Virus record (IMG/VR): IMGVR_UViG_3300044608_002225
Coordinates: 1 to 42,409 of that record
Source of the DNA: a virus
Reading direction: 5' to 3' (one strand)
DNA length: 42,409 bases
In this document: piece by piece, positions 1,741 to 38,552 of the stretch
Layout of the letters: the number at the start of each line of letters is the position of its first letter
How positions within the stretch are numbered: the stretch's first letter is position 1
Program-made: the position numbers and the translations under genes
The notes under the pieces: generated by a model
What the model saw: only the letters and a program-made list of their open reading frames with translations
Told to the model about the DNA's origin: nothing
The model's database searches: none

Positions 1741-3390
1741 CTAGCCCAAGCGGACGGCCTGCGCCTCGTTGATCGCAGCCATCGCTCCGCGGAAGTCGAG
1801 CCCGCTGGACTCCCAGTCGATGCCAAGGCTCTTCAGCTTCCACTTCTGGCCGGGCGTCGGCTGCTTCGTCAGCTTGTCGAGCAGTTGCTTCGCGTGGTGG
1901 AAGTTGAGGTCGCCCGGAACCGGACAGCCGTACTTCTTCAGCAGGTTCTTCTGCGGGTCGCTCACCGGCTTGCCCTTGAACCAGCCCGGAACGCGGGTCG
2001 GCTCGAGCCCGGTGAAACGGAACGGATCGACATCGCGCTCGACATACTGAGCCTTCGCCGCCATGCGGACCTTCTCGAGCCGCTTGCGTTCGGCCTTCTC
2101 CTTTGCCCTTGCCTCGGCCTCGTCCATCGCGGCCAGCACATCGAACTCCGGCTGGTCGCCCTTCGATTCCTTTGGCCTCGCGGCGTTGCGTGCCGATTCA
2201 CCGACGCGACCGCCGAGCACATCCGCCGCGTAGACCAACTGGTGCCGACCGCTGTTGCCGACGAAGTCGAGCACGAGGACGCTGCGCTTCTCGCTCGCCG
2301 CGATCGCCGACCGCCTCGTGTCGTCCGTTTCGCAGGCGTCAATCACGCCCGGAATCGGGCGGGTGCCGCGGCCGATGCACTGGCTGTACAGGGACCGGCT
2401 CTTGGTCGGTCGCATCATCGCGATGCACTGCACGCCCTTGCCGTCGGTCGCCGGGTCGTCCCAGCCCTCCGTCGCGATGCCGACATTCACGAGGTAGCGG
2501 ATCTCGCCGGCGCCGAACCGACGGAACACCGCGGCCCGCTCGTCGCCCGGAGTGTCGCCCGTCACCATCGCTGCGGTGCCCGGATGCCTCGCGTTGATGT
2601 TGTCGCGGACCAGCGTCGCGTGCTTCACATTCACGGCGAAGATCAGCGTCCGCAGGTCGCGGGTAATCTCCAGCATCGGTCCGACCATCTCCCACACGAC
2701 CCGCTCGCGTTCGACGACATCGGAGAGTTCGCCCTGGTTCAGGTCACCGGCCAGCGTGTGAACCTTCGACAGGTCCAGCGAACTGCAGCGGATGAACTTC
2801 TGGCGGATCGGCACGAGCCAGCCCTGCCGGATCGCGTCGACCACATGCATCTCGTAGGCGACCGACTCGAAAATCTGGCCGAGGGCGAGTTCGTCCTGCC
2901 GGTCAGGCGTCGCCGTCACGCCGAGGAACCGGCAATCGTCATTCGCGCCCGCCAGCAGGTCGATGACGCCTCGGTAGCTTCTCGCGACCGCGTGGTGCGC
3001 CTCGTCGACGACGACGAATCCGATCGGCCGTTCGCCGGCGAGAAGCCTGCGGGTCCGGCGGCACCCGTTCATCGAAAGGGTCTGGATGGACGCGCACACA
3101 ACCGGTGCACGCGCCCACCCAAACCCCGCGCGTGAGTCCGCCATTTCGATGTCGACGCCTAGCCCGGCCTGCCGCTCGATCCGCTTTGCCGCCTGGTGGA
3201 TGAGTTCCTCGCGGTGAGCGATCACGAGCGTCGAAGTCCCCGGGATCTCGTGCCTGCGGGCGATGGCTCCCGCGAACACCGTCGTCTTGCCGGTTCCCGT
3301 CGGCATGACGACCAGCGTCGATCGCTTCTCCTCGAGCTCGGCGTCGATCCGCGCGAGGCACTCGGATTGGTACGGCCGCAGGCGGATCAC
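1741..3390 (-). CDS. SF2 DEAD/DEAH-box helicase
   Basis: A 549-residue protein with the complete superfamily 2 set: Walker A P-T-G-T-G-K-T (30-36), motif Ia A-H-R-E-E-L (58-63), DEAH (129-132), motif III T-A-T-P (159-162), motif V near I-A-T-E-G-W-D-D-P (305-313) and motif VI Q-C-I-G-R-G-T-R (337-344). The C-terminal third has a charged linker (about 415-445) and a small domain ending near W-K-L-K-S-L-G-I-D-W. Such helicases remodel DNA or RNA in phage replication modules, often near an annealase. The GTG start (3390) overlaps the dNMP kinase stop (GTGA). The substrate cannot be read from sequence. Confidence 0.9.
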   Translation of the reverse strand: MIRLRPYQSECLARIDAELEEKRSTLVVMPTGTGKTTVFAGAIARRHEIPGTSTLVIAHREELIHQAAKRIERQAGLGVDIEMADSRAGFGWARAPVVCASIQTLSMNGCRRTRRLLAGERPIGFVVVDEAHHAVARSYRGVIDLLAGANDDCRFLGVTATPDRQDELALGQIFESVAYEMHVVDAIRQGWLVPIRQKFIRCSSLDLSKVHTLAGDLNQGELSDVVERERVVWEMVGPMLEITRDLRTLIFAVNVKHATLVRDNINARHPGTAAMVTGDTPGDERAAVFRRFGAGEIRYLVNVGIATEGWDDPATDGKGVQCIAMMRPTKSRSLYSQCIGRGTRPIPGVIDACETDDTRRSAIAASEKRSVLVLDFVGNSGRHQLVYAADVLGGRVGESARNAARPKESKGDQPEFDVLAAMDEAEARAKEKAERKRLEKVRMAAKAQYVERDVDPFRFTGLEPTRVPGWFKGKPVSDPQKNLLKKYGCPVPGDLNFHHAKQLLDKLTKQPTPGQKWKLKSLGIDWESSGLDFRGAMAAINEAQAVRLG

Positions 3391-3899
3391 GGCTTCGACC
3401 TCCTGACGGTCTCCGCGAACCCGACGACGGTCGAGGCCCGGTCCTCGAGGTCGGCGACGGTCGCGACATTGCGGGTCGTCATGTCCGCCTCGACGGCCTG
3501 CGTCTCGCTCGCGTGCCCGTTGCCGCAGTAGCCCGGCCGATCGACCCGCACGATGATTCCGCCGAGCGAGCGGATGGCCGCAGCCTCGTTCGCGAAGCGG
3601 ACATCGTCGGCGACGACGATCATCGGCCAGCCTTCCGAGTCGGAGAGCGACGACAGCCAGTGCCGCACCCAGATGTCATCGCCGAGACAGTCGCGACCGC
3701 ACTCGGTTCCGATGAGCTGCAGCAGCCGACGGCCCTTGTCGTCCTTCTGGCCGTTCCAGCCCATCATGCGGGCGATCTCCTTCACCTTCTCGGCGAACGG
3801 ACGCACCTCGACCTCGGGGTAGTTCCGTTCGATCGCGTTCGCGAGCGTCGTCTTGCCCGCTCCCATGTTGCCGGTGATGCCGATGAAGAGCCGGTTCAC
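3387..3899 (-). CDS. Deoxynucleoside monophosphate kinase-like NTPase
   Basis: A 170-residue protein from GTG 3899, which overlaps the preceding stop (GTGA). It has a P-loop G-N-M-G-A-G-K-T (10-17), a V-A-D-D-V-R-F strand end near 100, and an H-A-S-E motif near 130, the pattern of phage dNMP kinases related to T4 gp1. These phosphorylate dNMPs to feed dNTP synthesis. Its neighbours (helicase downstream, ParB-like protein upstream) fit a DNA-metabolism operon. An AAA-type NTPase of another function is the main alternative. Confidence 0.75.
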   Translation of the reverse strand: MNRLFIGITGNMGAGKTTLANAIERNYPEVEVRPFAEKVKEIARMMGWNGQKDDKGRRLLQLIGTECGRDCLGDDIWVRHWLSSLSDSEGWPMIVVADDVRFANEAAAIRSLGGIIVRVDRPGYCGNGHASETQAVEADMTTRNVATVADLEDRASTVVGFAETVRRSKP

Positions 3900-4633
3900 A
3901 GTTCCACCGCCTTCGCGGCGTCGCGGCGCGACAGTTGGCCGAACTCGACCTTGACGATCCAGCCCCGCCCCTTGCAGCGGTCGCAGCCCTTGCCGTCGCA
4001 GAACGGGCACGACGCGTGCGGCTGCGCCTCCTTCAGAACATCGACGATCGAGTCGATCTGAAGCTCAAACCCGTTGGTCAGGTGCGGGATATGGTCCTCC
4101 GCTCGCAGGCACTTCGCCTCGTTCTTCAGGCACCGCGCGAGCCTGCGGATCTCGTCGAACCGCTGCATGGCCTCGCGTGCCCGGTCGAGCCGGGTGTCCC
4201 GCTCGTCGGCCTCCGGTTCGGCGTCGTCAAGCTCCTGTGCCGCCTCGCGGATCGCCGCCGCGGTCACCTTGGGCTTGCCGTCGCGCCCAACGGGTGCGGA
4301 CTCCTGCGCCTTCTGGAGCACTTCGGCCCGCCGCTCGGGCTCCACCATCTTCAGTTCGCGAAGCTGGCTTTCGCTAATATCCCCAATTGGGGATATTACG
4401 GAAACCTCCTTGGCGACCTCTGCCGCGTCCATCAGGCGGTATGCCTGCGACTTGCCTATTCCGAACTCATGTTCGATGTAGGTGTAGAAGGAGCCCTCCT
4501 TCTCCCGGTGCAGCTTCTCGTTCCGGATCGTCCACAGGGCCTCACCGACCTCGATGAAGGTCTTCTTGCCGTCGTGAACGACCTGTTCAAGCTCGGCGAG
4601 TCGCTTCGACTCGCTTCGTGTCAGTGCGGTCAT
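3896..4633 (-). CDS. ParB/Kor-like HTH protein with C-terminal zinc motif
   Basis: A 245-residue protein. The N-terminal half has the arrangement G-E-A-L-W-T-I-R-N-E-K-L-H-R, Y-I-E-H-E-F-G-I-G-K-S-Q-A-Y-R-L, then S-E-S-Q-L-R-E-L and V-T-A-A-A-I-R-E-A, known from ParB/KorB-like DNA-binding regulators of phages and plasmids. A coiled region follows (about 140-185). The C-terminus carries C-x2-C-x-G-x-G-C-x2-C-x-G-x-G (Cys209, 212, 217, 220), like one DnaJ zinc unit. A 24-bp perfect palindrome inside the gene encodes I-S-P-I-G-D-I-S (about residues 80-87) and recurs in non-coding DNA at 32770. A partition or regulatory role at that palindrome is inferred. No ParA-like ATPase is visible. Confidence 0.7.
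   Translation of the reverse strand: MTALTRSESKRLAELEQVVHDGKKTFIEVGEALWTIRNEKLHREKEGSFYTYIEHEFGIGKSQAYRLMDAAEVAKEVSVISPIGDISESQLRELKMVEPERRAEVLQKAQESAPVGRDGKPKVTAAAIREAAQELDDAEPEADERDTRLDRAREAMQRFDEIRRLARCLKNEAKCLRAEDHIPHLTNGFELQIDSIVDVLKEAQPHASCPFCDGKGCDRCKGRGWIVKVEFGQLSRRDAAKAVEL
4375..4398. repeat. 24-bp perfect palindrome, copy 1 (inside ParB-like gene)
   Basis: The half-site TAATATCCCCAA is followed directly by its exact reverse complement. The same 24 bases occur at 32770-32793. It is AT-rich at its ends in otherwise GC-rich coding DNA. The position within a ParB-like gene recalls parS sites inside spo0J/parB genes; that comparison is established knowledge, the function here is inference. 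Confidence 0.85.
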
Positions 4634-4649
4634 GTCACACCTCCGGCGG

Positions 4650-5348
4650 TCACTTCTGCTTGGAAGCCCGCTTCTTCATGGTTTCGATCCATGTCCACGC
4701 CAATGCCGCCTTGGACCGCGGCCACTGCGCGATGTTCGCGGGCAGGGCCGGGTTCTTCGAGACGGCGGTCGCGATGAGGATGTCGGTCTTCAGCCCCGCA
4801 GCCTCGACGGCCACGCGGATCTTCTCGGCCTCCTCGTCGCCGATCGGCGGTTCCTTCGACTCGCGCTCCCGGCGCTCCTCTTCCTTCATCGCGCTGATCT
4901 CGTTCTCGTCGAGTCGAGCGACGAGGAGCAGACCGACGATGAAGTAGCCGAGCGCGGAGGTCATGCAGCCGAGCACGGCCTTGTCGAGCCCCTTGCCGCC
5001 TCCGTCGATCGCAGGGAGGTCGATCGTGTAGTCGCGGTGCTCGGTCGTCCCGATCGCGGACACCCGGAAGGATGTCGTGACCTTGCACCAGGCACGGGGT
5101 TCGTTGCCCTGCCTCGTCGGCGGCAGGTCGGGCAGTCGCTCGCCCATGACGGCGCCGGTTCGGCTCACGGACAGACCGGCCTCGTGCAGGGCCTTGCGGC
5201 ACTCCTTGACGATGTCCTCGGTGCTCGCGTAGTTGTACTTGGGACCGCGGTCGGCCTCGACGCGCGAGTCGGTCGCGACGGCCGCGATCGCCTTCTGTGC
5301 GTCGATGATCCGCTCGTCGATCGACTTGTGGGCGTTGGAGTTGGTCAC
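4650..5348 (-). CDS. ERF-family single-strand annealing protein
   Basis: A 232-residue protein from GTG 5348, overlapping the nuclease stop (GTGA). It shows the ERF pattern: D-E-R-I-I-D-A-Q-K-A, then Y-N-Y-A-S-T-E-D-I-V-K-E-C-R-K-A-L (39-54), a central beta region, and the hydrophobic T-S-A-L-G-Y-F-I-V-G-L-L-L helix near 130-142. The C-terminal tail is charged, with a W-P-R-S-K-A-A-L-A-W segment. ERF proteins anneal complementary single strands. The PD-(D/E)XK nuclease immediately upstream is the natural exonuclease partner, giving a RecE/RecT-type two-gene system. Confidence 0.85.
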   Translation of the reverse strand: MTNSNAHKSIDERIIDAQKAIAAVATDSRVEADRGPKYNYASTEDIVKECRKALHEAGLSVSRTGAVMGERLPDLPPTRQGNEPRAWCKVTTSFRVSAIGTTEHRDYTIDLPAIDGGGKGLDKAVLGCMTSALGYFIVGLLLVARLDENEISAMKEEERRERESKEPPIGDEEAEKIRVAVEAAGLKTDILIATAVSKNPALPANIAQWPRSKAALAWTWIETMKKRASKQK

Positions 5349-6310
5349 CAGCCACCCCCTTCGAGCTCGAGCGTGCCGCGACGCTGCGCGAGCGTCTGCT
5401 TGCGTGCCCAGTGCGGCAGCGAAACCGTGATGCACTCGTCGTCGTAGGCGGGCCACTCGCCGCTCTCGACGCACTGGTGCCACAGCCGGAGAAGCTCCTC
5501 GACCTGCGTGTCGGCGATGCCGAGATCGTCCATGTCGAGCCGGTACAGACCGACGGCGTACGGAGGCTCCTTCTCGACGCAGACCCACACGAAATCCTGC
5601 ACATCGAGACCGAGCCGGTTCGCTCCCTTCAGGTAGAGCGCGGCCTGCCGGTGATAGCCGTAGTTGACGACGCTGGTCCGCCAGTCCCAGTAGTTGGCGC
5701 TCTGCGTGGTCTTCAGGTCGACCATCGCACCGAAGCTCGTCGCGATGCCGTCGGCGCGGAACTTCGCCCGCAGTCCGATGTCGTCGAACGGGGTGAACAC
5801 GCCCGACACCTCTCGTTCGTCCTTCGTCGCCATCAGGTGCGCGTAAGCGCCCGGATGGTCGATGAGAGACGCGGCCATCGCCCGGACGGCGTCGGCCTCC
5901 GCCGTGGTGATGCACTCCTTGCCCTCGGCCCGGATCGCCTCGGCCCAGTCGCGGAACTTGTCGGTGTCCGAGCCGAACGGCTTGCCGGTCTTCGGGTTGA
6001 TCGGTCCGCCCCACGCGAAGCCCTCGCGAAAGGCGTCCTCGCCCTCCAGAACGAGCAGGTGAAGCGCCGTCCCGATCCGCAGCGAAGCGGAGTCGAGCGG
6101 CTCACTCATCCGGCGTTGAGCGTGCGCCGGAGAGCGTCGCCACATCTCGTTCAGGAGGGTGGAGGACGGGAGGGGCCAGCCGTGATAGGTCGAAGCGGGA
6201 ACGCCGCGATGGATGCCGTCGGGCGGGATGTCAGAGACGGCGAGACGGCGATCGGAGATGTCGATCACCTCCGGCTCGCGGACGACGATGTCGGTCGATG
6301 CGTCGCTCAT
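5345..6310 (-). CDS. PD-(D/E)XK exonuclease (RecE/YqaJ-like)
   Basis: A 321-residue protein. Core motifs are G-T-A-L-H (80-84), K-F-R-A-D-G (183-188), M-V-D-L-K-T-T (196-202) with the catalytic D-x-K, and a downstream Y-H-R-Q-A-A-L-Y segment, the order found in exodeoxyribonuclease VIII-like phage nucleases. It should resect dsDNA ends to make single strands for the adjacent ERF protein. ATG 6310 overlaps the preceding stop (ATGA). Confidence 0.85.
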   Translation of the reverse strand: MSDASTDIVVREPEVIDISDRRLAVSDIPPDGIHRGVPASTYHGWPLPSSTLLNEMWRRSPAHAQRRMSEPLDSASLRIGTALHLLVLEGEDAFREGFAWGGPINPKTGKPFGSDTDKFRDWAEAIRAEGKECITTAEADAVRAMAASLIDHPGAYAHLMATKDEREVSGVFTPFDDIGLRAKFRADGIATSFGAMVDLKTTQSANYWDWRTSVVNYGYHRQAALYLKGANRLGLDVQDFVWVCVEKEPPYAVGLYRLDMDDLGIADTQVEELLRLWHQCVESGEWPAYDDECITVSLPHWARKQTLAQRRGTLELEGGGW

Positions 6311-8419: not shown

Positions 8420-9564
8420 GGCACGCACTCTCCGCGCGGGACATCGCCCGCCGCTGGCGTAAGGGGGCAGTCCGGAAGGTCCGGTCCGGGGTCGGCCGGG
8501 TCGCTTCGCTTGCGGGCACGGCATCCGTACGCCGGCGAATCGTCCCACACGCAGTCGAAGTCCTGCTTCCGCTCGAGCGTGATGACGCTGATCCCGTCGA
8601 ACTCGCACACATAGTCCTCGACGCAGCAGTCGGTGGACTGATTCACCACGCGATAGCGATAGCAACACTTGACCAGCCCGTCGCAGTCGGTCAGGTAGAA
8701 GGTACTCGTAGGAACGCAGCCCGGAATGAACGGGCTCAGGACGACGCAATCGGCGTTCGTCGTCGGGTATCCGTTGATGTCGTACTCGACGGTGCACGGG
8801 AAAATGCAGACGCCCGGGTCTTCGCCCTCGCACGGTTCCGACGAGCACTCGCACGGATTCTGCCATCCGAGCCCCGCCTGGTTCGTGCAGGTGCACGCCG
8901 TCGAGCCGATGCAGTTGATGCAGGGTCCGTTGTCGACATCGCCCGGGCAGGTGCCTGCGCATGTCCATTCCCAACCGGGCGCCGTCGCCGCGGGCAGGTA
9001 GAACGGACTGCCGAGCGCATCGACGAACCGGCACGGCTCGACGCTGTCCGGCCGCCAGTCGCTCGGCGTCGCGCACACATCCTCGATGACCCGGCAGCCC
9101 GCGCAGACCCATCGGATCTCCAGCGGGTAGTTGCACGCGGTCGGCGTGCCTGGCGGGAAGTTGCTGTTCCCGTTCAGCGTGAACTGGTAGTAGGGATGGC
9201 AGTAGCAGAACCCGTCGTCGGGGTTCGTGCGGTAGACGACGAGCCCGTCGCACGGCGTCGCGGTGCACTCGTACTCGACCCACAGGTCGGGCTGGTCGCT
9301 GCACTCGATCGTGTAGCAGCACCGCTTCGGATAGGTGATCTCGGGCGGGCACGAAGCCCCGTCGCACGATGCGGTGAACGGAGCGCCGGAGCAGGCCATC
9401 GCGTTCGAGAACATCGCGACCTTATCGAACGCCGGACGCGGGAAGGTCAGCCGCAGGACATCGCCCAGCCGATAGCAGCAGCCACCGGCATCGCCCTGCG
9501 GACCCTTCCAGCACTGGCAGCACGGCTCGCCGCCGGCGCAGCAGCATTGCGTATGGGCTGGCAT
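8416..9564 (-). CDS. Extremely cysteine-rich protein, probable virion or surface component
   Basis: 382 residues, of which I count about 46 cysteines (12%). They come in pairs and short clusters throughout (QCCCAGG, PCCQC, GGCCY, CTCTN, KCCYRY, DCCVED), alternating with aromatic, Thr/Asn/Pro-rich beta-like segments. There is no signal peptide. Such a content suggests disulfide knots formed after release, or many metal sites. Its start is coupled to the 60-residue gene upstream and its end to the Cys-containing 190-residue gene. The family is not recognised; a tail-tip or receptor-binding role is only a guess. Confidence 0.65.
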   Translation of the reverse strand: MPAHTQCCCAGGEPCCQCWKGPQGDAGGCCYRLGDVLRLTFPRPAFDKVAMFSNAMACSGAPFTASCDGASCPPEITYPKRCCYTIECSDQPDLWVEYECTATPCDGLVVYRTNPDDGFCYCHPYYQFTLNGNSNFPPGTPTACNYPLEIRWVCAGCRVIEDVCATPSDWRPDSVEPCRFVDALGSPFYLPAATAPGWEWTCAGTCPGDVDNGPCINCIGSTACTCTNQAGLGWQNPCECSSEPCEGEDPGVCIFPCTVEYDINGYPTTNADCVVLSPFIPGCVPTSTFYLTDCDGLVKCCYRYRVVNQSTDCCVEDYVCEFDGISVITLERKQDFDCVWDDSPAYGCRARKRSDPADPGPDLPDCPLTPAAGDVPRGECVP

Positions 9565-9746
9565 CAGTCGCCGTTGCCGGAAGTGACGCCCTTCACATAG
9601 GCGTCGAACTTGCCGCGGCTGATCTCCTCGATCGCCTTCTTCTGCGCAAGCTGATCGGGCGTCAGGTCAGACTCCTTGAACGACGCGATCACCTTGGCGA
9701 TTCCGTTGAGTGCGGCGAATGCTGCCGCGATCGTGACAGGGTCCAT
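9564..9746 (-). CDS. Small hypothetical protein
   Basis: 60 residues: a hydrophobic N-terminal helix (I-A-A-A-F-A-A-L-N-G-I-A-K-V-I-A-S-F) then a charged helix with K-K-A-I-E-E-I-S-R-G-K-F. Overlaps both neighbours by one base (TGATG). Probably part of the lysis-associated group by position; no family recognised. Confidence 0.6.
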   Translation of the reverse strand: MDPVTIAAAFAALNGIAKVIASFKESDLTPDQLAQKKAIEEISRGKFDAYVKGVTSGNGD

Positions 9747-19262: not shown

Positions 19263-21277
19263 GTCGCGACATACCCCGCGGGTTCGCCGAGCGTGGTCTC
19301 GAACTTCTCGTCGCCGACCGTGTTCGGATTGCCGAACGCGTCGAGGTCACGGGTCGGAAGGTACGGCAGCTTCATCGTGCCGACATTTGCGAGGACCGTC
19401 GAACGGCCCGGCCACGACTGGCGGTAGGTGTTGCTTCCGCTCGCCTTGTTGAAGTAGGTGTTCGCGTCCGCGCCGCCCGGATCGGCGATCGTGAACACGC
19501 GCGAGAATATCGCGGCCATCATCCGGTTGTTGTTCGCGTCCGCGACGCCGCCGTGCACCGGGAAGTCCTCGGAGAGAACCACCGCGTTCGCCGGCATGGG
19601 CAACAGCGACCGCTCCGGGGCCGCGTTCATCCGGACCGCCTCGAGCTCCTGCATGACCACCGTCCGCGGCTTGCGGATCTGGAACGGGACATCCGCCGCG
19701 GTGAGATCCTGCGAGGGCATCACGCACATGTGCGTCTCGACCGCGTGCCGCTCCATCGAACGGACCGACAGGTAGGGGTTCGCCGGGCCGGACGCGAGCA
19801 CCGACGAGTCCTTGCGGCTCTTCGAGTTGTCCTTGCCGAGATGCACCCGCTGCGAGTCCGCCGCGGTGTTGATGACCGCGTTGAAGAACGCCACCGGGAA
19901 CTCGTAGACCACCGACTCCTTTTCGGATGCCTGCAGCACCACGGTCGTGTTCCATGTCTTCTGAAGCTCGGTCAGTTCGGGGTCGTACCAGCTTGGCGTG
20001 ACCCGGTACACGCCGAAGTTGCCGAAGGCGTCCGGGTAGGTCGTCGGGGCGAACTCGAAGGCGATCGCGGTCCCGCCGCTCGGCGCGAGGGCCAGCGTGC
20101 TCAGGATGTTCACGAGAAGCCCGCCGCTCCTGAACGGCGTGCCCTGCGGCACGGTCGCACCGCCGCCGAAGCTGGCGGACATGATCGAGTTGCCGATTGC
20201 CTCAACCTCGAACTGGATGATGTTCGAGTTCAGCATGTCGATCTCGCGGACGACGATCCGGCGGATGACATCGGGCTCGTAGGTCACGCCGTTGACGGTC
20301 TGCTTCGAGAAGAAGATGCGGTTCTGAGACAGGCGGATCGCGACGACGAGGAGATCGGCGGGCGATGCGTTCGGTCCGCCCTCCAGGGTCGCGGAGAACC
20401 GCTTGATGCCCATCGCGCTACTCTCGCCGCCGAGGATCGACCGGTCATACTCGAAGTTGACATCGCCGCGCCGGACCGGTGCGGGCATGCCTCGCGCGTA
20501 TTCCTTGTCGACGATCGTGAAGATCATCCGCGTCCGCGTCTCGTCGGTCGCCCACTCCTGCGACTCGCGGCGGAAGCCCGGCAGCAGGTTGCCCGCGACC
20601 AGGCGACGGTACTCCTCGGGGAAGGCGTTCGACGGCGTGCCGCTCGGCGGCTTCGGGTAGTCCGGCACCTTGTCGGCCGACGCGGCCAGCGACGAGTAGC
20701 CGTAGGCGGGCGCCGTCGCCACAGAGCCGGTCGCGGGTCGGGTCGGGTAGCTTGGCGGATCGAGCACCGATCCGGAACTCTTCTGCAGCACGATGTAGCC
20801 GGTCTTCGTCAGGGTCGTGCTGCCGATCGTGTCGACCGTGAACCGGGCCTGCATGACGAACTCGCGGACGAGCGACAGCGTCGCACCGGTCGCGTAGGTC
20901 CGGTGCCACTCGAAAGCCCACTGCACGAGCGCGGTGCCCGTGCCGATGATCTCGGTGATGCGAACGCTCGGGATCGGGCCGGTGCGGTCGTCGCCCTCGA
21001 TGTCGACGATGTCGTGGTGCGTCGCGCCGTTCTGCTCGGTGATCCGGACGCGGAGCGCGAGCCCGTTCTTCGACAGCAGGTTCGACACCGTCGCGATGCG
21101 GGTCTCGAGCGGAATGCCGGGCGCGGCGGCGATGATCGCCTCGCCCTCGATGATGTGCTTCGTGATGCCGCGCGACGGCTTCTCGGCGGTCGCGTCGGTC
21201 AGGTGCTCGAAGCGACCGATGCGGACCTGCTCGAAGCTCGCGAACCCGCCGTAGGTGAGGGTGACCGTACTGCTCAT
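19259..21277 (-). CDS. Large tail structural protein
   Basis: 672 residues, starting M-S-S-T-V-T-L-T-Y-G-G-F-A-S-F. It is beta-rich, with two repeated-looking blocks around A-L-V-Q-W-A-F-E-W-H-R and I-I-Q-F-E-V-E-A-I-G, suggesting two tail-tube-like folds such as distal-tail or minor tail proteins have. No catalytic motif. It overlaps both neighbours by ATGA and follows the short tape-measure candidate, so a distal tail role is likely. Confidence 0.6.
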   Translation of the reverse strand: MSSTVTLTYGGFASFEQVRIGRFEHLTDATAEKPSRGITKHIIEGEAIIAAAPGIPLETRIATVSNLLSKNGLALRVRITEQNGATHHDIVDIEGDDRTGPIPSVRITEIIGTGTALVQWAFEWHRTYATGATLSLVREFVMQARFTVDTIGSTTLTKTGYIVLQKSSGSVLDPPSYPTRPATGSVATAPAYGYSSLAASADKVPDYPKPPSGTPSNAFPEEYRRLVAGNLLPGFRRESQEWATDETRTRMIFTIVDKEYARGMPAPVRRGDVNFEYDRSILGGESSAMGIKRFSATLEGGPNASPADLLVVAIRLSQNRIFFSKQTVNGVTYEPDVIRRIVVREIDMLNSNIIQFEVEAIGNSIMSASFGGGATVPQGTPFRSGGLLVNILSTLALAPSGGTAIAFEFAPTTYPDAFGNFGVYRVTPSWYDPELTELQKTWNTTVVLQASEKESVVYEFPVAFFNAVINTAADSQRVHLGKDNSKSRKDSSVLASGPANPYLSVRSMERHAVETHMCVMPSQDLTAADVPFQIRKPRTVVMQELEAVRMNAAPERSLLPMPANAVVLSEDFPVHGGVADANNNRMMAAIFSRVFTIADPGGADANTYFNKASGSNTYRQSWPGRSTVLANVGTMKLPYLPTRDLDAFGNPNTVGDEKFETTLGEPAGYVAT

Positions 21278-22233
21278 CGGATGATCCCCCGTTCCCAGCC
21301 GTTCGGACCCCAGCGGACGCGCGTCGGACGGTCACGGCCGCCCGTCCGGATCGGACGCTCCTGCATGCGGAGAAGGTCGCCGACCATCGTGTTCAGTTCG
21401 TTCATCGCGACGCCGTTCGCGCCCATTGCGGGCCCGCTGGTCATGCGCGATCCGAGTAGCCACATGGCGTAGCCGAACGGGCTCGTCATGAACCCTGCCC
21501 CGGCGACCGAAGCGAGTCCCAACGCGGCCATCTCTCCCGCCATCCGAACCGGGCCCATCGCCTGATCGAACTGCATCGCGACGCTCGATCGCATCTTCGC
21601 GGCGGTCACGACCATCGGGCTGTTCGCGATCTCGTAGGACTTCATCCAGCGGTTGACCTCGACCTGCGACTGCAGGCCAGCGACCTGCGGGCTGAACCGC
21701 GAGAGCCGCTGCATGGACGCATCGCCCATCGAGTTCGCCAGCTTGATGAGCCCGTAGCCGACCAACGCCGGACCGATCACCGCGCCGGCGGCACCGAGTC
21801 CGAGCGGAATCCGCATCCCCCCGATGCCGGGCATCGCTGGCATGTTCAGCATCGGGCCGAAGCGGTCGGTCATCGTCCGCGGAGCACCCGAAGCCCGCAC
21901 GCCGACCGGCACGGGCACCGGGCGCGGCGGAGCACGAGTCGGGACCGGCGGAGGCGGAACGCGGAACAGCCGGTCGAGATCGTCCGTCAGGTCGCCACGA
22001 CGGCGAGCGGAGGCCACGGCAGGCACCACCGCGTTACGGCCGCCCATGCGGGCAAGCAGCTCGGCGATCGTCCGCGTCGTGACGAGAAGGCCGTTCACGC
22101 CGGTCGCGATCGACTCCAGCGTGGTCGCCATGCCGCTCAGAAGCGGACGGATGTCCGGCATCGTCACCGGACCGGCCGACTCGCCATCGGACGGAAGATT
22201 GATCGTGACCGCAGCCACCGGAGACTCAGCCAT
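21274..22233 (-). CDS. Tape-measure-like tail protein (short)
   Basis: 319 residues. An N-terminal helical part (L-L-S-G-M-A-T-T-L-E-S-I-A-T-G-V-N-G-L-L) is followed by a Pro/Val linker (about 92-112). Two Gly/Ala/Met-rich hydrophobic regions (about 130-170 and 230-275) resemble the membrane-active segments of tape-measure proteins. It lies two genes after the frameshifted chaperones, close to the usual tape-measure slot, and is the only candidate. At this length the tail would be short. It could instead be a minor tail protein. Confidence 0.45.
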   Translation of the reverse strand: MAESPVAAVTINLPSDGESAGPVTMPDIRPLLSGMATTLESIATGVNGLLVTTRTIAELLARMGGRNAVVPAVASARRRGDLTDDLDRLFRVPPPPVPTRAPPRPVPVPVGVRASGAPRTMTDRFGPMLNMPAMPGIGGMRIPLGLGAAGAVIGPALVGYGLIKLANSMGDASMQRLSRFSPQVAGLQSQVEVNRWMKSYEIANSPMVVTAAKMRSSVAMQFDQAMGPVRMAGEMAALGLASVAGAGFMTSPFGYAMWLLGSRMTSGPAMGANGVAMNELNTMVGDLLRMQERPIRTGGRDRPTRVRWGPNGWERGIIR

Positions 22234-22234
22234 C

Positions 22235-23014
22235 TCAGACCTCCCTCACGCGGTAGACAGCGGACAGCGCCGCACTCGGGTACGGGCTTCGCCAGCGGCG
22301 GTAGACGATGCCGCCGATCGTCACCGTCCCGCACGCCGGACCGCTCGGAGGCTCGTTCGTGTTCGAATACCAGTCGAGCGCGCGGCCGCCCTCGCCCCAA
22401 AAGCCCAGCGGTCCGCCGGTCACCGGCTGGAGGCACCAGACATACTGGTCGGCACCCGAGGTTCGATCGACCGAGACCGACTGATCGAGGTTCGCGACCG
22501 TCGCTCCGACCAGCGTCGTCGGAGCGGTCGCAGACCACACGAGCCGAAGCTGGTAGGGGCTGCCCCACTCGTACTCGCACTCGTAGATGTCCGTCACCCG
22601 AACCGCACCGTCGCCGCCAGGTGCGACCACCGGAGCGCCGACCGACACGAGCCGCAGCGGCACCTCGAGCAACGCATCGAGATAGCTGCCCTGCAACGCG
22701 ACGCGCGAGACATCCACCCGCGACAGCACCGAGCCGCCCTCACGCGTGAACGCGATCGACTGCTCGACGCTCGGATCGAGAGCCTGCCGCACCCATGTCG
22801 TGACCTCGACCCGCTCGCGGACGAGGCCGGAGTTCTGCCGAGGGACGCGGAACGGACCGCCGGATGCCCTGACCTGCACGAAGAAGTCGGAGCCGGGCTC
22901 GAGACGCGGGAAGTCCGTCAGCGAAACGCGATTCGAAGCGACGCCGATCGCGGACAGGCCGGCGCCGACCTTCGCGACGATCGTTCGATAGATGTCGTCG
23001 GGAGTCGCTACCAC
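22235..23014 (-). CDS. Minor tail protein, beta-rich
   Basis: 259 residues from GTG 23014, overlapping the preceding ORF by 7 nt. The N-terminal third resembles tail-terminator-like folds (I-Y-R-T-I-V-A-K-V, V-E-V-T-T-W-V-R-Q-A-L-D, L-L-E-V-P-L-R-L-V). The C-terminal half has aromatic beta segments (W-G-S-P-Y-Q-L-R-L-V-W, Y-R-R-W-R-S-P). The tail-terminator suggestion is inference. Confidence 0.55.
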   Translation of the reverse strand: MVATPDDIYRTIVAKVGAGLSAIGVASNRVSLTDFPRLEPGSDFFVQVRASGGPFRVPRQNSGLVRERVEVTTWVRQALDPSVEQSIAFTREGGSVLSRVDVSRVALQGSYLDALLEVPLRLVSVGAPVVAPGGDGAVRVTDIYECEYEWGSPYQLRLVWSATAPTTLVGATVANLDQSVSVDRTSGADQYVWCLQPVTGGPLGFWGEGGRALDWYSNTNEPPSGPACGTVTIGGIVYRRWRSPYPSAALSAVYRVREV

Positions 23015-23250
23015 CGTCGGGCCCCTCCCTCGCGCCGGATCTCGGCCTTCGCCGCCTCGATGCGGATCGCGGCGACCTTCGCCGGATCGCCGCCCGCGTC
23101 CTCGTACAGCTTGGCGATCAGCTTGCCGTCCGACGACGCGCCGGCGGCCGCCGTCATGGCGAGCGTCTTCTGAGCCATTGACCGGCCGAGATTCATCATC
23201 AGACCTATCGCCTCCTCGGGCTCACAGGCCGACGGCGGGAACCCGTACAC
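23008..23250 (-). CDS. Tail assembly chaperone, second ORF (frameshift product T)
   Basis: An 80-codon frame (as an independent ORF it would need GTG 23250). It is helical, with E-E-A-I-G-L-M-M-N-L-G, K-L-I-A-K-L-Y-E-D-A-G-G-D and a basic C-terminus. A -1 shift on the GGGAAAA heptamer at 23280-23286 joins residue 86 of the upstream ORF to ten extra residues and then this frame, giving a 176-residue fusion. This matches the G/GT tail-assembly-chaperone arrangement between major tail and tape-measure genes in siphoviruses. Confidence 0.75.
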   Translation of the reverse strand: MYGFPPSACEPEEAIGLMMNLGRSMAQKTLAMTAAAGASSDGKLIAKLYEDAGGDPAKVAAIRIEAAKAEIRREGGARRW

Positions 23251-23286
23251 GGTCGCGAACTCCGCCGACGGCCTCAGCCTTTTCCC
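23227..23286 (-). promoter_or_regulatory. Programmed -1 frameshift signal: slippery heptamer plus stem-loop
   Basis: On the minus strand the zero-frame codons CTG GGA AAA GGC TGA contain G-GGA-AAA in the exact X-XXY-YYZ phase (23280-23286). After a 6-nt spacer comes the 12-base arm GGCCGTCGGCGG (23262-23273), a 23-nt loop, and CCGCCGTCGGCC (23227-23238): 11 pairs and one T-T mismatch. Slip site, spacer and stem all fit bacterial -1 frameshifting, and the -1 frame leads into the next ORF without a stop. Confidence 0.85.
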
Positions 23287-23537
23287 AGCGACTCCATGTA
23301 GGCGATGACGCGACGGCCGATCGAATACGCCTCGTTGTCGGTGAGAGCGGGAACGCCCGCACCGAGCGCCGCACGGGTCATCGACACGATCTCGGCGACC
23401 GGGATCGCCTCGCCCTCGGACCGGTTCAGCTTGCCAAGTTCGGCCATCATCTGGAAGCAGTCCACGCGGACGGCGACGCCCTCGCGGACCTCGACCTCCA
23501 CCGCGTAACGGTCACTCATCAGGCTCAGTCGCTCCAT
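23274..23537 (-). CDS. Tail assembly chaperone, first ORF (product G)
   Basis: 87 residues: a short beta N-terminus (Y-A-V-E-V-E-V-R-E-G-V-A-V-R-V) followed by helices (I-P-V-A-E-I-V-S-M-T-R-A-A-L-G, Y-S-I-G-R-R-V-I-A-Y-M-E-S-L). It sits between the major tail protein candidate and the tape-measure region. Its end carries the GGGAAAA slip site three codons before the stop. The unshifted product would be the abundant chaperone; the shifted one the G-T fusion that contacts the tape measure. Confidence 0.75.
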   Translation of the reverse strand: MERLSLMSDRYAVEVEVREGVAVRVDCFQMMAELGKLNRSEGEAIPVAEIVSMTRAALGAGVPALTDNEAYSIGRRVIAYMESLGKG

Positions 23538-30250: not shown

Positions 30251-31706
30251 ACTTCAGCCTCCAGAGCCTGCCCTTGCCGCTCGAAACGGTCGTCGGCCTG
30301 TGGTCGGCACCATAGCCTCCGCGGCCGACCGACGACATGAATGTCACCGCCGCGTCGACGCAATCGTCGTGCTCGCTCGCGGGGAATGTCGACAGCTCAT
30401 CGTAGAGCGGACGAAGCTCCTCGATCGGCTCACGCAAGTCCCGGTCGGACCGCATGCGGAGCCTGCCCTGCTCGACGAAGGTCTGCTGCTCCGTCGCCCG
30501 GGTCATCTTGTCGGCGCTCCGCTCGACCATGTGCCAGCGGATGCTCGGGTACTCCGTCTGCATCTGCTGCACGAGCCCACGCTGCGGACCGCTCGCCTCG
30601 CAGAAGACATCGCGGATGCCCATCGACATGCACAGCGACGCCGCCTGCCGCTTGAACTCGGGGAAGCTCTCGCGGACGCGGAGCATCCGCTCCACCCACG
30701 CGTCGCCCTGCATCGACCTCCGGCCCGCGATGAGCACCGAGTAGTCCGGGTTCGGCTTGTCGGATGACTTCTTGTTGAACGCGAAGTCGATCGAACCGAC
30801 CGGCGTGCCCGTCGACCTGACATGGTCGGGCATCTCCCACCAGAAGCCCTGATCGAGCCACGACGAACGGAACACGATCTGGTCCGTCGACACCGGCACA
30901 AGCTCGTAGGCCCTCGCGTACGCGAACGCCCCGAACTCCTCGCGGATCTCCCGCATCGCCTCGACCGACCACCGCTCGGGCCACGGGCTGACGAAGTCGA
31001 CCACCGGCCGACGGAACAGGCTGCCGCGCTCGCCGTGATACCGGCGCCAGTCCGCGGTGATGTCCGCGACATGGTACGGCGTGCCGATTCGCCATGTCCG
31101 CGGCGGGTTTTCGAGGTTCGTCCGGTCGCGGGTCGGAAGCCAGTTGTTCTTGACGAAGTCCTTCACCTGCTCGCGCGAGGACGGCTGCATGATCGCGTTC
31201 CGCATGTCGCAGATGTCGTCGAACACGAGGAGGTCCGACCGGCCGCCGGCGCGACCGAGCACCGGAACGGCCTCGATCGTCGGGTCGCGCAGGCTCGCGT
31301 TCGGCCTCTGCACCGTCAGTGCGGTGTTGCCCCAGTTGTCCTTGTCCCGGCGGATCTCCGGGAACACCATCTGGAACTCGTCGCCCTCCATGATCCGCTT
31401 CACCATCGTGACGGTCTTGCCCGCCTCGGCCTCGTTGCTGCCGACATACTTGATCCGGATGTTCGGATTCGATCCGATCTCCCACGCGAGCCGAAGGCCG
31501 AGCGTCGCCGTCTTCGAGTGACCACGCGGCAACTCGACATAGCTGTTCGCCCCTTCCGGCGAACTCCAGAACGCCTGAAGGTCCTCCTGTAGCTGGCCGT
31601 TCTCGACATTGCCGACGAACTGCTGGAAGAACGACGGCACGCGGCGGCACGCGATCAGGAACTCTTCCGGCGACAGCGACTCCTCGGCGTGCACGGCTTC
31701 GGTCAC
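30243..31706 (-). CDS. terL: Terminase large subunit
   Basis: 487 residues from GTG 31706, overlapping the beta-helix stop (GTGA). ATPase: P-loop variant P-R-G-H-S-K-T (60-66) and Walker B L-L-V-F-D-D-I (159-165). RNase H-like nuclease: D307 in S-I-D-F-A-F, and the late E-H-D-D-C-V-D-A. It cuts and pumps DNA into the prohead through the portal encoded next. No small terminase is evident upstream, where a beta-helix gene stands instead. Confidence 0.92.
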   Translation of the reverse strand: MTEAVHAEESLSPEEFLIACRRVPSFFQQFVGNVENGQLQEDLQAFWSSPEGANSYVELPRGHSKTATLGLRLAWEIGSNPNIRIKYVGSNEAEAGKTVTMVKRIMEGDEFQMVFPEIRRDKDNWGNTALTVQRPNASLRDPTIEAVPVLGRAGGRSDLLVFDDICDMRNAIMQPSSREQVKDFVKNNWLPTRDRTNLENPPRTWRIGTPYHVADITADWRRYHGERGSLFRRPVVDFVSPWPERWSVEAMREIREEFGAFAYARAYELVPVSTDQIVFRSSWLDQGFWWEMPDHVRSTGTPVGSIDFAFNKKSSDKPNPDYSVLIAGRRSMQGDAWVERMLRVRESFPEFKRQAASLCMSMGIRDVFCEASGPQRGLVQQMQTEYPSIRWHMVERSADKMTRATEQQTFVEQGRLRMRSDRDLREPIEELRPLYDELSTFPASEHDDCVDAAVTFMSSVGRGGYGADHRPTTVSSGKGRLWRLKYG

Positions 31707-32641
31707 TGGCCGACCTCCACCCTCGCGTTCGGCGGCACATACACGCCCGGGCCCGTGATCGAGCCGACCGTCACGCCCCGCCACTCGCAGCGGTCGAGCA
31801 GCTCACGCGTCGCCGGATCGCTCGCGTAGATCCCCTTCCGGAACTCGCAGTCGACGAACACGCCCCGGTCAAGCCTCCGCATCCCAAGGTGCAGCGGCTG
31901 CCCGAACCGCACCCCACGCCACGAGAGATCCGAACACCCGACCGTGATCCGGCTCGCCCACACCTGACCGGCCGGGCGGTCCGCAAAGTCGCAGCCCTCG
32001 ACCGCCGCAGACATCACGCCCGGACTCGACGCCGAACCGAGCACCGTCCAATGCAGGTACTGAGCCGAACACGGACGCTCGCCCACCCGCAAGCCCCGCA
32101 ACTCCACCCGGTACTCGCCCATCCCAGCCGTCCACTCCGGCCGGAACACCTGGTGCACATCCGGATGCGAACCCCCACCGCCCGGCACCTCGCCGACCGT
32201 GCAGCCCTCCACCAGCCGACACCCGCTCAGCACATCCGATCGGATGTCCTCGAAGCCGCTCCCCCTCACCTCGTCAGCGTTCACCGGACCGTTCAGCGTC
32301 CCCGTCCAGCGGCAATCACTCACCTCCGCCAGCCTGCAGGTCGTGAACACATCCGCCACGCTCGACGACGAGCCCGGACCCCTCACCCAGCACCTTCGAA
32401 GCCGCACCACCGTCTTCCGCGACACGAACCCCACGAACCACGATCCGCTACCCACCTCCAGCGTGCAGTCCTCGAGCGTCAATCCCCCCAACGCCACCCG
32501 GTGATCGACCGACGAATACACCACCGCCCGACGCATGTCGCGGCCGACAATCGTCAGGTTATCCCCAGCCACGCTGCCGCTGTCACGCCAGCAATCGCGC
32601 AGCGTCGTCTGCCCGTCGACGAAGATCGTCCGGTCCGCCAT
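31703..32641 (-). CDS. Right-handed beta-helix protein (tailspike-like fold)
   Basis: 312 residues from ATG 32641 (upstream open frame rejected by composition). It shows repeating rungs of short strands with regular Cys/Val/Asp turns: L-T-I-V-G-R-D-M-R-R-A-V-V-Y, L-T-L-E-D-C-T-L-E-V, V-V-R-L-R-R-C-W-V-R-G, A-E-V-S-D-C-R-W-T-G, G-V-F-V-D-C-E-F-R-K-G. This is the pattern of pectate-lyase-type parallel beta-helices of tailspikes. It is the first gene of the packaging block, an odd site for a fibre gene. No catalytic triad is apparent. Confidence 0.65.
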   Translation of the reverse strand: MADRTIFVDGQTTLRDCWRDSGSVAGDNLTIVGRDMRRAVVYSSVDHRVALGGLTLEDCTLEVGSGSWFVGFVSRKTVVRLRRCWVRGPGSSSSVADVFTTCRLAEVSDCRWTGTLNGPVNADEVRGSGFEDIRSDVLSGCRLVEGCTVGEVPGGGGSHPDVHQVFRPEWTAGMGEYRVELRGLRVGERPCSAQYLHWTVLGSASSPGVMSAAVEGCDFADRPAGQVWASRITVGCSDLSWRGVRFGQPLHLGMRRLDRGVFVDCEFRKGIYASDPATRELLDRCEWRGVTVGSITGPGVYVPPNARVEVGQ

Positions 32642-32734
32642 GCGGACATCTTCCCGACGGAATCCGAACTTCACCCCGCAGACACGCGAAAACGCCCGCG
32701 GAAACGCCCATCCACCCACCACGCGGCACCCGTC

Positions 32735-35857: not shown

Positions 35858-36583
35858 ATGAACGCAACCGCCTACCTTCGCGTCTCGACCGACGAGCAAG
35901 CCTCATCCGGCCTCGGGCTCGACGCCCAGCGTGCAGCCATCGAAGACGCCGCACGCCGTCAGGGCCTCACCGTGACCGCGTGGCACACCGACGCGGGCCT
36001 CAGCGGCTCGCTGCCGCCCGAGGAACGCCCCGGCCTCACAGCGTCCCTAGGCTCGCTTGCGAAGGGCTCCGTGCTTCTCGTCGCCAAGCGTGACCGGCTC
36101 GCACGCGATGTCCTCGTGATGTGCCTCTTGGAGCGTGACCTCGCACGCCGCGGTTGCCGCATCGTGTCGGCCGCGGGCGAGGGCACCGAAACGGAAGGGC
36201 CAGCCGGATTCCTCCAGCGGACGATGCTCGACGGGATCGCTCAGTACGAACGCCTCCTGATCGCGTCGAGGACGAAGTCAGCCCTCGGTGCGAAGCGCCA
36301 CGCCGGCGAGAAGACCGGCGGCCATGTTCCGTACGGGTATCGTATCGCAGGTCACCGCATCCGCGGCGGGAAGTCCGTTCCGGTTCTCGAAACCGACCCT
36401 GCCGAGCAATCCGTGATCGAGCGAATCTGCCGCCTCTGGCGTGCCGGTCACACGGTCCGCTGGATCGCCCGCGAACTCGACGCCGCCGGTGTCGCGAGCC
36501 GGAGCGGCAAGCCTTGGGCGCACCAGCTCGTCGCGAAGATCGTGCGGCGTGCGAACCTCCCCGCAGCGGTCGCGGCCGCTTGA
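35858..36583 (+). CDS. Serine recombinase (resolvase/invertase family)
   Basis: 241 residues. Resolvase domain: Y-L-R-V-S-T-D-E-Q with catalytic Ser10 and Arg8, D-R-L-A-R at 79-83, and M-L-D-G-I-A-Q-Y-E-R-L-L-I near 130. A recombinase domain follows (H-A-G-E-K-T-G-G-H-V-P-Y-G-Y, E-R-I-C-R-L-W-R-A-G-H-T, I-A-R-E-L-D-A-A-G-V). It is shorter than large serine integrases. Because a tyrosine integrase with its att site is present, this enzyme may resolve multimers, invert a segment, or have arrived with the cassette. It ends the plus operon before a strong terminator. Confidence 0.9.
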   Translation: MNATAYLRVSTDEQASSGLGLDAQRAAIEDAARRQGLTVTAWHTDAGLSGSLPPEERPGLTASLGSLAKGSVLLVAKRDRLARDVLVMCLLERDLARRGCRIVSAAGEGTETEGPAGFLQRTMLDGIAQYERLLIASRTKSALGAKRHAGEKTGGHVPYGYRIAGHRIRGGKSVPVLETDPAEQSVIERICRLWRAGHTVRWIARELDAAGVASRSGKPWAHQLVAKIVRRANLPAAVAAA

Positions 36584-37768: not shown

Positions 37769-38161
37769 TTAGCCTTTCGGACGGTCTCCGACAATGATCT
37801 CGACTTCGACGCGCGGGTTCTCGCGGTCCCGCTGGAATGTCGGCTTCAGGTGCGTGATGTCGCGGTCGTTTCCGACGATGCCAGCGTCCTGCAGGGCGTC
37901 GAACCCTGGCTTGAACCACGCGATCGAGTTGTCGTCGTCTGGCTTGACGATGCGACGCAGGTAGAAGTGCAGCCGCACGGCGACGCTTGCGGCGGCCTCG
38001 TCCGGTCGGTGCTCAAGAGCCCGAATCCACACCGAGCCCCGGAACTTCTTGACGGCCCGGGCCTTCGCGAAATGATGCGGCCGCTCGTTGGGGTGCAGTG
38101 CCCTTGGCGGCAGCGGGACCGCGAACCGTATGGTGTCAGAACGGGATGTCGCCATCGTCAT
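37769..38161 (-). CDS. rusA: RusA-like Holliday junction resolvase
   Basis: 130 residues. The RusA signature is clear: K-P-D-D-D-N (73-78), a Lys at 84, F-D-A-L-Q-D-A-G-I-V-G-N-D (87-99) and D-I-T-H-L-K-P-T-F. RusA nucleases cut Holliday junctions during phage recombination and replication. AAGGA precedes ATG 38161; the start lies inside the end of ssb (26-nt overlap), so the two are coupled. Confidence 0.9.
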   Translation of the reverse strand: MTMATSRSDTIRFAVPLPPRALHPNERPHHFAKARAVKKFRGSVWIRALEHRPDEAAASVAVRLHFYLRRIVKPDDDNSIAWFKPGFDALQDAGIVGNDRDITHLKPTFQRDRENPRVEVEIIVGDRPKG

Positions 38162-38552
38162 CGTTCCTTGCGGGTGCCTTCGCGGCGGGCTCGCGCTTGG
38201 CGGGCGCGGCGCCCGGATCGTCGCTCTTGCCGGAGTCGAGCGGCATGATGCGATCGGCGACGATCTTGATCTTCGACCGCTTGCCGCCCTCCTTGTCGGT
38301 CCATGACTCCTGCCGCAGCGTGCCGTCGGCGAGAACGAGCCGACCCTTGCCGAGATACTTCACCATGAACTCGGCGGTCTTCCCCCACGCCTCGCATTCG
38401 AAGAAGTCCGCGACATCGGCGGGCTGTCCGTTGGAGTCCTTCCCCTTCCGGTTGACGGCGAGTCCGAACTTCGCGACGACGGAGTCTCCGGCGTGCTTGC
38501 TTTCGATGTCACGGGTGATGCGACCGACGATGTAGGCTCTTGCGATTGACAT
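38136..38552 (-). CDS. ssb: Single-stranded DNA-binding protein
   Basis: 138 residues. OB-fold pattern I-V-G-R-I-T-R-D-I-E, F-G-L-A-V-N-R-K, A-D-F-F-E-C-E-A-W-G-K-T-A-E-F-M-V-K-Y-L-G-K-G, then a Pro/Ala linker and acidic tip D-D-D-G-D-I-P-F, which binds SSB partner proteins. It protects ssDNA for the ERF/nuclease system and replication. GGAG precedes the ATG. The 57 nt upstream hold no clear promoter. Confidence 0.93.
   Translation of the reverse strand: MSIARAYIVGRITRDIESKHAGDSVVAKFGLAVNRKGKDSNGQPADVADFFECEAWGKTAEFMVKYLGKGRLVLADGTLRQESWTDKEGGKRSKIKIVADRIMPLDSGKSDDPGAAPAKREPAAKAPARNDDDGDIPF

Follow-up and report, generated by a model that had tools for sequence, protein, structure and literature searches.

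The question raised by this locus is whether two short overlapping ORFs, lying beside a candidate major tail gene, are joined by a programmed -1 ribosomal frameshift that supplies a long-tailed phage with its two tail assembly chaperones, or whether the change of frame between them has another origin. The window, that is, the whole stretch of DNA analysed, is an entire IMG/VR virus record of 42,409 bases (66.6% G+C) with its structural genes on the minus strand, and ORF1, the heptamer, the hairpin and ORF2 all lie on that strand too (Table 1). From the sequence comparisons described below, we regard the frameshift as very highly probable, and the best reading of the locus is a programmed -1 frameshift of the lambda G/GT type in a protein family that neither Pfam nor PHROGs recognises.

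Table 1. Features of the putative frameshift site and of the adjacent tail genes (positions in the window).
Feature	Position	Strand	Basis
Major tail (tube) protein candidate, 176 aa	23548..24078	-	AlphaFold model pLDDT 77; PDB fold matches
ORF1, 87 aa, short (G-like) tail assembly chaperone candidate	23274..23537	-	Open frame, ATG start
Slippery heptamer G GGA AAA	23280..23286	-	In phase with ORF1
Downstream hairpin	23227..23273	-	Fold energy, codon-resampling control; covarying stems at the corresponding place in relatives
-1-frame extension (T-like), giving a putative 176-aa fusion with ORF1	23008..23280	-	Open to the stop at 23008
259-aa tail gene between the chaperone pair and the tape measure candidate	22235..23014	-	Coding-like ORF
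Tape measure protein candidate, 319 aa (inferred)	21274..22233	-	Position and one hydrophobic stretch

An earlier note on this DNA had placed GGGAAAA in exact slip phase near the ORF1 stop, with a -1 frame that enters ORF2 without a stop and predicts products of 87 and 176 residues; reading the minus strand in frame agrees with the first point, and translation gives both lengths. The 3' end of ORF1 is CTG GGA AAA GGC TGA, in which GGGAAAA takes the X XXY YYZ phase and is the sole slippery heptamer in phase within ORF1. With a -1 slip at this point the product has 176 aa, versus 87 aa without it. The heptamer is followed by a 6-nt spacer, GGCTGA (23279-23274), whose final three bases are the ORF1 stop itself. 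Across 12 other structural genes, X XXY YYZ heptamers occur four times in 4284 in-phase codon positions, and GGGAAA followed by A, C or G is absent in phase from these same positions. The codon AAA is also rare in the window, accounting for 1 of the 104 Lys codons counted in 12 structural genes.

Relatives were collected by a capsid-protein search of viral contigs, from which 80 loci were kept out of 113 matches, together with portal and ORF1 searches, making 82 loci in total once the window itself (L002) and a second copy (L001) of the contig represented by L003 had been left out. An HMM of the -1-frame (ORF2) domain matches 61 of the 82, and every one of these 61 has an in-phase heptamer at the junction, located 1821-2507 nt past the capsid match. 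The heptamer is GGGAAAC in 50 loci, GGGAAAA in 10 and AAAAAAC in one. Because L003, which is among them, shares 99.6% identity with the window, the number of separate relatives is no higher than 60; over 160 nt, the distinct sites number 52. Among the 21 loci lacking an ORF2 match, 20 end 2 to 1977 nt past the capsid match, before the site, and the remaining one (L006) has no capsid match. A homologous ORF1 could be aligned in 49 relatives.

The HMM seed starts two codons ahead of the tblastn match, which may favour Gly-Lys at the start, and it leaves the codons and the last heptamer base unfixed, the control for codon choice being Lys codon usage and resampling. That last base is C in 51 of the 61 loci, A in 10 and G in none, while AAG makes up 511 of the 517 Lys codons in the relatives' capsid genes and AAA the other 6. 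The slippery site had seemed to be missing from eight relatives (L012, L080, L041, L043, L045, L016, L066 and L007), a suggestion rejected once direct reading found GGGAAAC or GGGAAAA in each of them. Of 42 distinct stretches upstream of the heptamer, only 14 show an SD-like stimulator, which is therefore not claimed as an element of the site.

These sites bear on two ways in which the frame could change before the ribosome is involved or only on paper. Slippage of RNA polymerase on the A run would find four consecutive A's in GGGAAAA, a short run for such slippage, as are the three of GGGAAAC; three is all that 50 of the 61 sites offer, and a slip by the ribosome accords with both the heptamer phase and the stem downstream, so that we consider polymerase slippage extremely improbable. 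A sequencing or assembly error splitting one gene into two frames might be suspected, the virus contig being the product of assembly; the separate contig L003 is identical over 540 nt at the site, and the heptamer with its frame relation is kept in 61 of 61 loci, so the relatives exclude this explanation, to which we attach a negligible probability.

The pattern of variation also changes frame where a frameshift would predict. Among 31 sequences of group A (defined below by their stem), the most variable codon position before the heptamer is the third position of the 0 frame (0.57 vs 0.41 and 0.31), and after the stem it is the third position of the -1 frame (0.56 vs 0.32 and 0.21). It could be argued that ORF2 is an independent gene with a start of its own, either the GTG at 23250-23248 or an ATG further in, heptamer and stem being incidental; the ORF list does contain an 80-aa frame from this GTG, and a GGAG sits 9 nt ahead of it. 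Against this, no ORF2 start codon common to the relatives was found in the 61 loci, in 16 of which the initial 75 nt of the -1 frame contain no ATG, GTG or TTG; the conserved domain already starts ahead of the GTG at 23250-23248, and the conservation of heptamer and stem would be left unexplained. An independent ORF2 is thus very unlikely, and the programmed -1 frameshift, which the earlier note had called a textbook case, gains the backing of the heptamers in 61 of 61 relatives, the frame switch in codon-position variability and the stem covariation described next.

In the window, the hairpin has its 5' arm at 23273-23262, a loop of 23 nt at 23261-23239 and its 3' arm at 23238-23227, with a stem of 12 positions including one U.U mismatch. 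The spacer, stem and loop that had been described for it (6 nt, 12 bases with one mismatch, and 23 nt) are all borne out on the minus strand. Folding of the site on the minus strand, the check that had been proposed, gave a divided result: the 57-nt stem region stands out, at -30.8 kcal/mol (z -2.74, with 2 of 200 shuffles equally good), whereas a longer 91-nt stretch has an unremarkable fold (z -1.16, 27 of 200 shuffles equally good). When the fusion protein was kept and the codons were redrawn from the phage's own usage, the fold of the window had a z of -2.52 against 2000 resampled sequences, 0.25% of which were as stable. Rfam gave no match in the window.

In the relatives, the stem covaries in two groups. 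For 46 distinct 67-mers, sorting by pairing gave 28 in group A, 13 in group B and five others, three of which (L078, L083 and L036) were returned to group A before counting; L003 and L004 have their 3' arm elsewhere and were excluded from the pair counts. With the caveat that such sorting favours high pairing, the 11-bp stem of group A (31 distinct sequences) is paired in 87.4% of cells and shows changes on both sides at 4 pairs, and in group B (13 sequences) the 9-bp stem is paired throughout (100%), 3 of its pairs having changed on both sides. Slid versions of the stem pair in just 24-55% of cells. The covariation score was reached by none of 500 shuffles in either group; weaker results came from the count of pairs changed on both sides, which was equalled by 71 of 500 shuffles for A and 17 of 500 for B, and from the number of further pair types, equalled by 391 of 500 and 500 of 500, respectively. 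RNAalifold recovers, unaided, the six outer pairs of the group A stem.

In every stem type, 6 or 7 nt separate the heptamer from the start of the 5' arm. The 3' arm is more mobile, lying about 6 nt further out in the window than in group A, and nearer in L004, whose predicted stem differs. The distance between heptamer and stem is thus conserved, whereas the partner arm varies. For the 52 distinct sites, z of the 60 nt past the heptamer averages -1.37 vs local windows, and 23 of 49 distinct sites pass the codon-resampling control at the 5% level, the other 26 not. Judging from the comparison of sequences as a whole, a stem downstream of the heptamer is kept by evolution.

The proteins themselves are poorly covered by reference collections. 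Neither Pfam nor PHROGs has a match for ORF1 of the window or for its extension, and a few of the ORF1 relatives, at most 4 of 50, show weak and scattered matches in PHROGs. The ORF1 model (pLDDT 86) has no significant match in the PDB, and a single one in BFVD, to an unnamed viral protein. Nothing was found by tblastn of the extension domain of L040 and L031 against the phage collection; the capsid query had no relative in the genome contigs or in the phage collection, and the portal query found only distant portals, with <30% identity among the matches listed (20 of 34 records).

The gene just upstream of ORF1 is predicted from its structural model to encode a tail-tube protein: at E 0.001 or better the model matches 26 PDB entries, the majority of them phage tail-tube proteins including lambda gpV, along with some T6SS Hcp and neck chains. 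Among 28 relatives of this protein, nine match a PHROG named as a protein with an Ig domain and one a major tail protein. In L004, two tandem segments (8615-9073 and 9142-9678) both match the major tail protein of the window, and the tail-tube gene is possibly duplicated there. Ahead of the tail-tube candidate we found a neck or tail-completion gene, a major head gene, a Mu-type portal and a terminase.

On the other side of the pair, tblastn matched the 259-aa gene to 14 loci, of which two are duplicates of a single near-identical contig; for the 319-aa gene it gave matches in L001 and L003 alone, the two copies of a near-identical contig. Most of the 16 relatives mapped have a gene of about 310-460 aa near the tape measure place, and in the two checked, L040 and L031, the gene at this place is the one with strongly hydrophobic stretches. 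A tape measure protein of just 319 aa, if the candidate is correct, would predict a short tail. Group B loci, including L031, carry an extra gene of ~423-434 aa right after the pair, ~265-1570 nt past the heptamer, and group A is without it. The siphovirus G/GT gene order first proposed for the window holds in part: the predicted tail-tube gene is directly upstream of the pair, but the pair is separated from the most likely tape measure gene by the 259-aa gene, which makes the order similar to that of lambda rather than identical. The evidence supports a siphovirus-like tail, and no sheath gene was recognised in the window, where no search was aimed at one.

Elsewhere in the genome, a serine recombinase of 241 aa (Resolvase and part of Recombinase; 35858-36583, plus strand) is encoded opposite to the structural genes; it suggests a temperate phage and is perhaps a shortened integrase. 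Genes at 1741-6310 and 38136-38552, both on the minus strand, for a helicase, a deoxynucleoside monophosphate kinase, an Erf-like annealing protein, an exonuclease VIII-like protein and a single-strand binding protein form a recombination and replication module. A tRNA-Pro (anticodon cgg; 31884-31967, minus strand) lies inside a coding-like ORF (31703-32674).

In lambda the heptamer is GGGAAAG, and at sites of the lambda G/GT type a downstream RNA structure is common, although not universal. The sites described here differ from lambda G/GT in their strong covarying hairpin and in a heptamer that ends in A or C, and the window differs further in that no sequence match of its pair to a named chaperone family was detected and that one gene precedes the tape measure candidate. 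The likeness is nonetheless clear in the excerpts of PMC5009743 used here: the lambda G/GT frameshift, spread among long-tailed phages, is likewise a -1 shift near the end of the short ORF, at a G-rich/A-rich heptamer, yielding a short and an extended product from a pair that adjoins the major tail protein gene. For haloarchaeal viruses, the sites listed in the same excerpts are GGGAAAC, AAAAAAC and GGGAAAG. At tail chaperone pairs, the Caulobacter phages phiCbK (AAAAAAC) and Colossus (GGGAAAC) and the haloarchaeal viruses HCTV-1, -2 and -5 have the same heptamers as our loci, a likeness that covers slip sites only (excerpts of PMC3556154 and PMC5009743). Burkholderia phage KL1 also resembles the window: its gp18/gp19 pair has a predicted -1 site, GGGAAAC, just ahead of a TGA stop and followed by what may be a stem-loop, and there too a tail gene separates the pair from the tape measure gene; unlike here, the evidence in the excerpt of PMC3483164 is prediction for single genomes.

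The overlapping ORFs, the in-phase heptamer, the downstream hairpin, which covaries in relatives, and the conserved -1-frame domain are plain from the sequence, and frameshifting itself and the chaperone function are inferred. Ribosomes would meet the hairpin while GGA occupies the P site and AAA the A site, and a minority would slip back one base to GGG AAA, bypassing the TGA to make the 176-aa, GT-like fusion, while most would stop at the TGA and release the 87-aa, G-like protein. By analogy with lambda, the short form may coat the tape measure protein, and the fusion may recruit the tail-tube protein, the product of the gene directly ahead of ORF1.

The mechanism is a known, textbook one; what this locus adds is a chaperone family that the libraries miss, together with strong support from relatives for heptamer and hairpin alike. 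More tentatively, and with rather less than even confidence, we propose that these genes are an unnamed tail-chaperone family of uncultivated phages whose frameshift element may be under joint selection, the heptamer and 5' arm fixed in place, the 3' arm re-invented at different positions per lineage, and the last base only A or C where AAG provides ~99% of Lys codons, so that slipping could be tuned to the A-site tRNA of hosts unlike E. coli. In practical terms, annotators can join ORF1 and ORF2, and the 52 distinct 160-nt sites form a natural data set on hairpin evolution around a fixed slip site. For the phages, the finding indicates that a chaperone frameshift of the lambda type has been kept throughout a group of uncultivated viruses whose tail proteins standard libraries miss.
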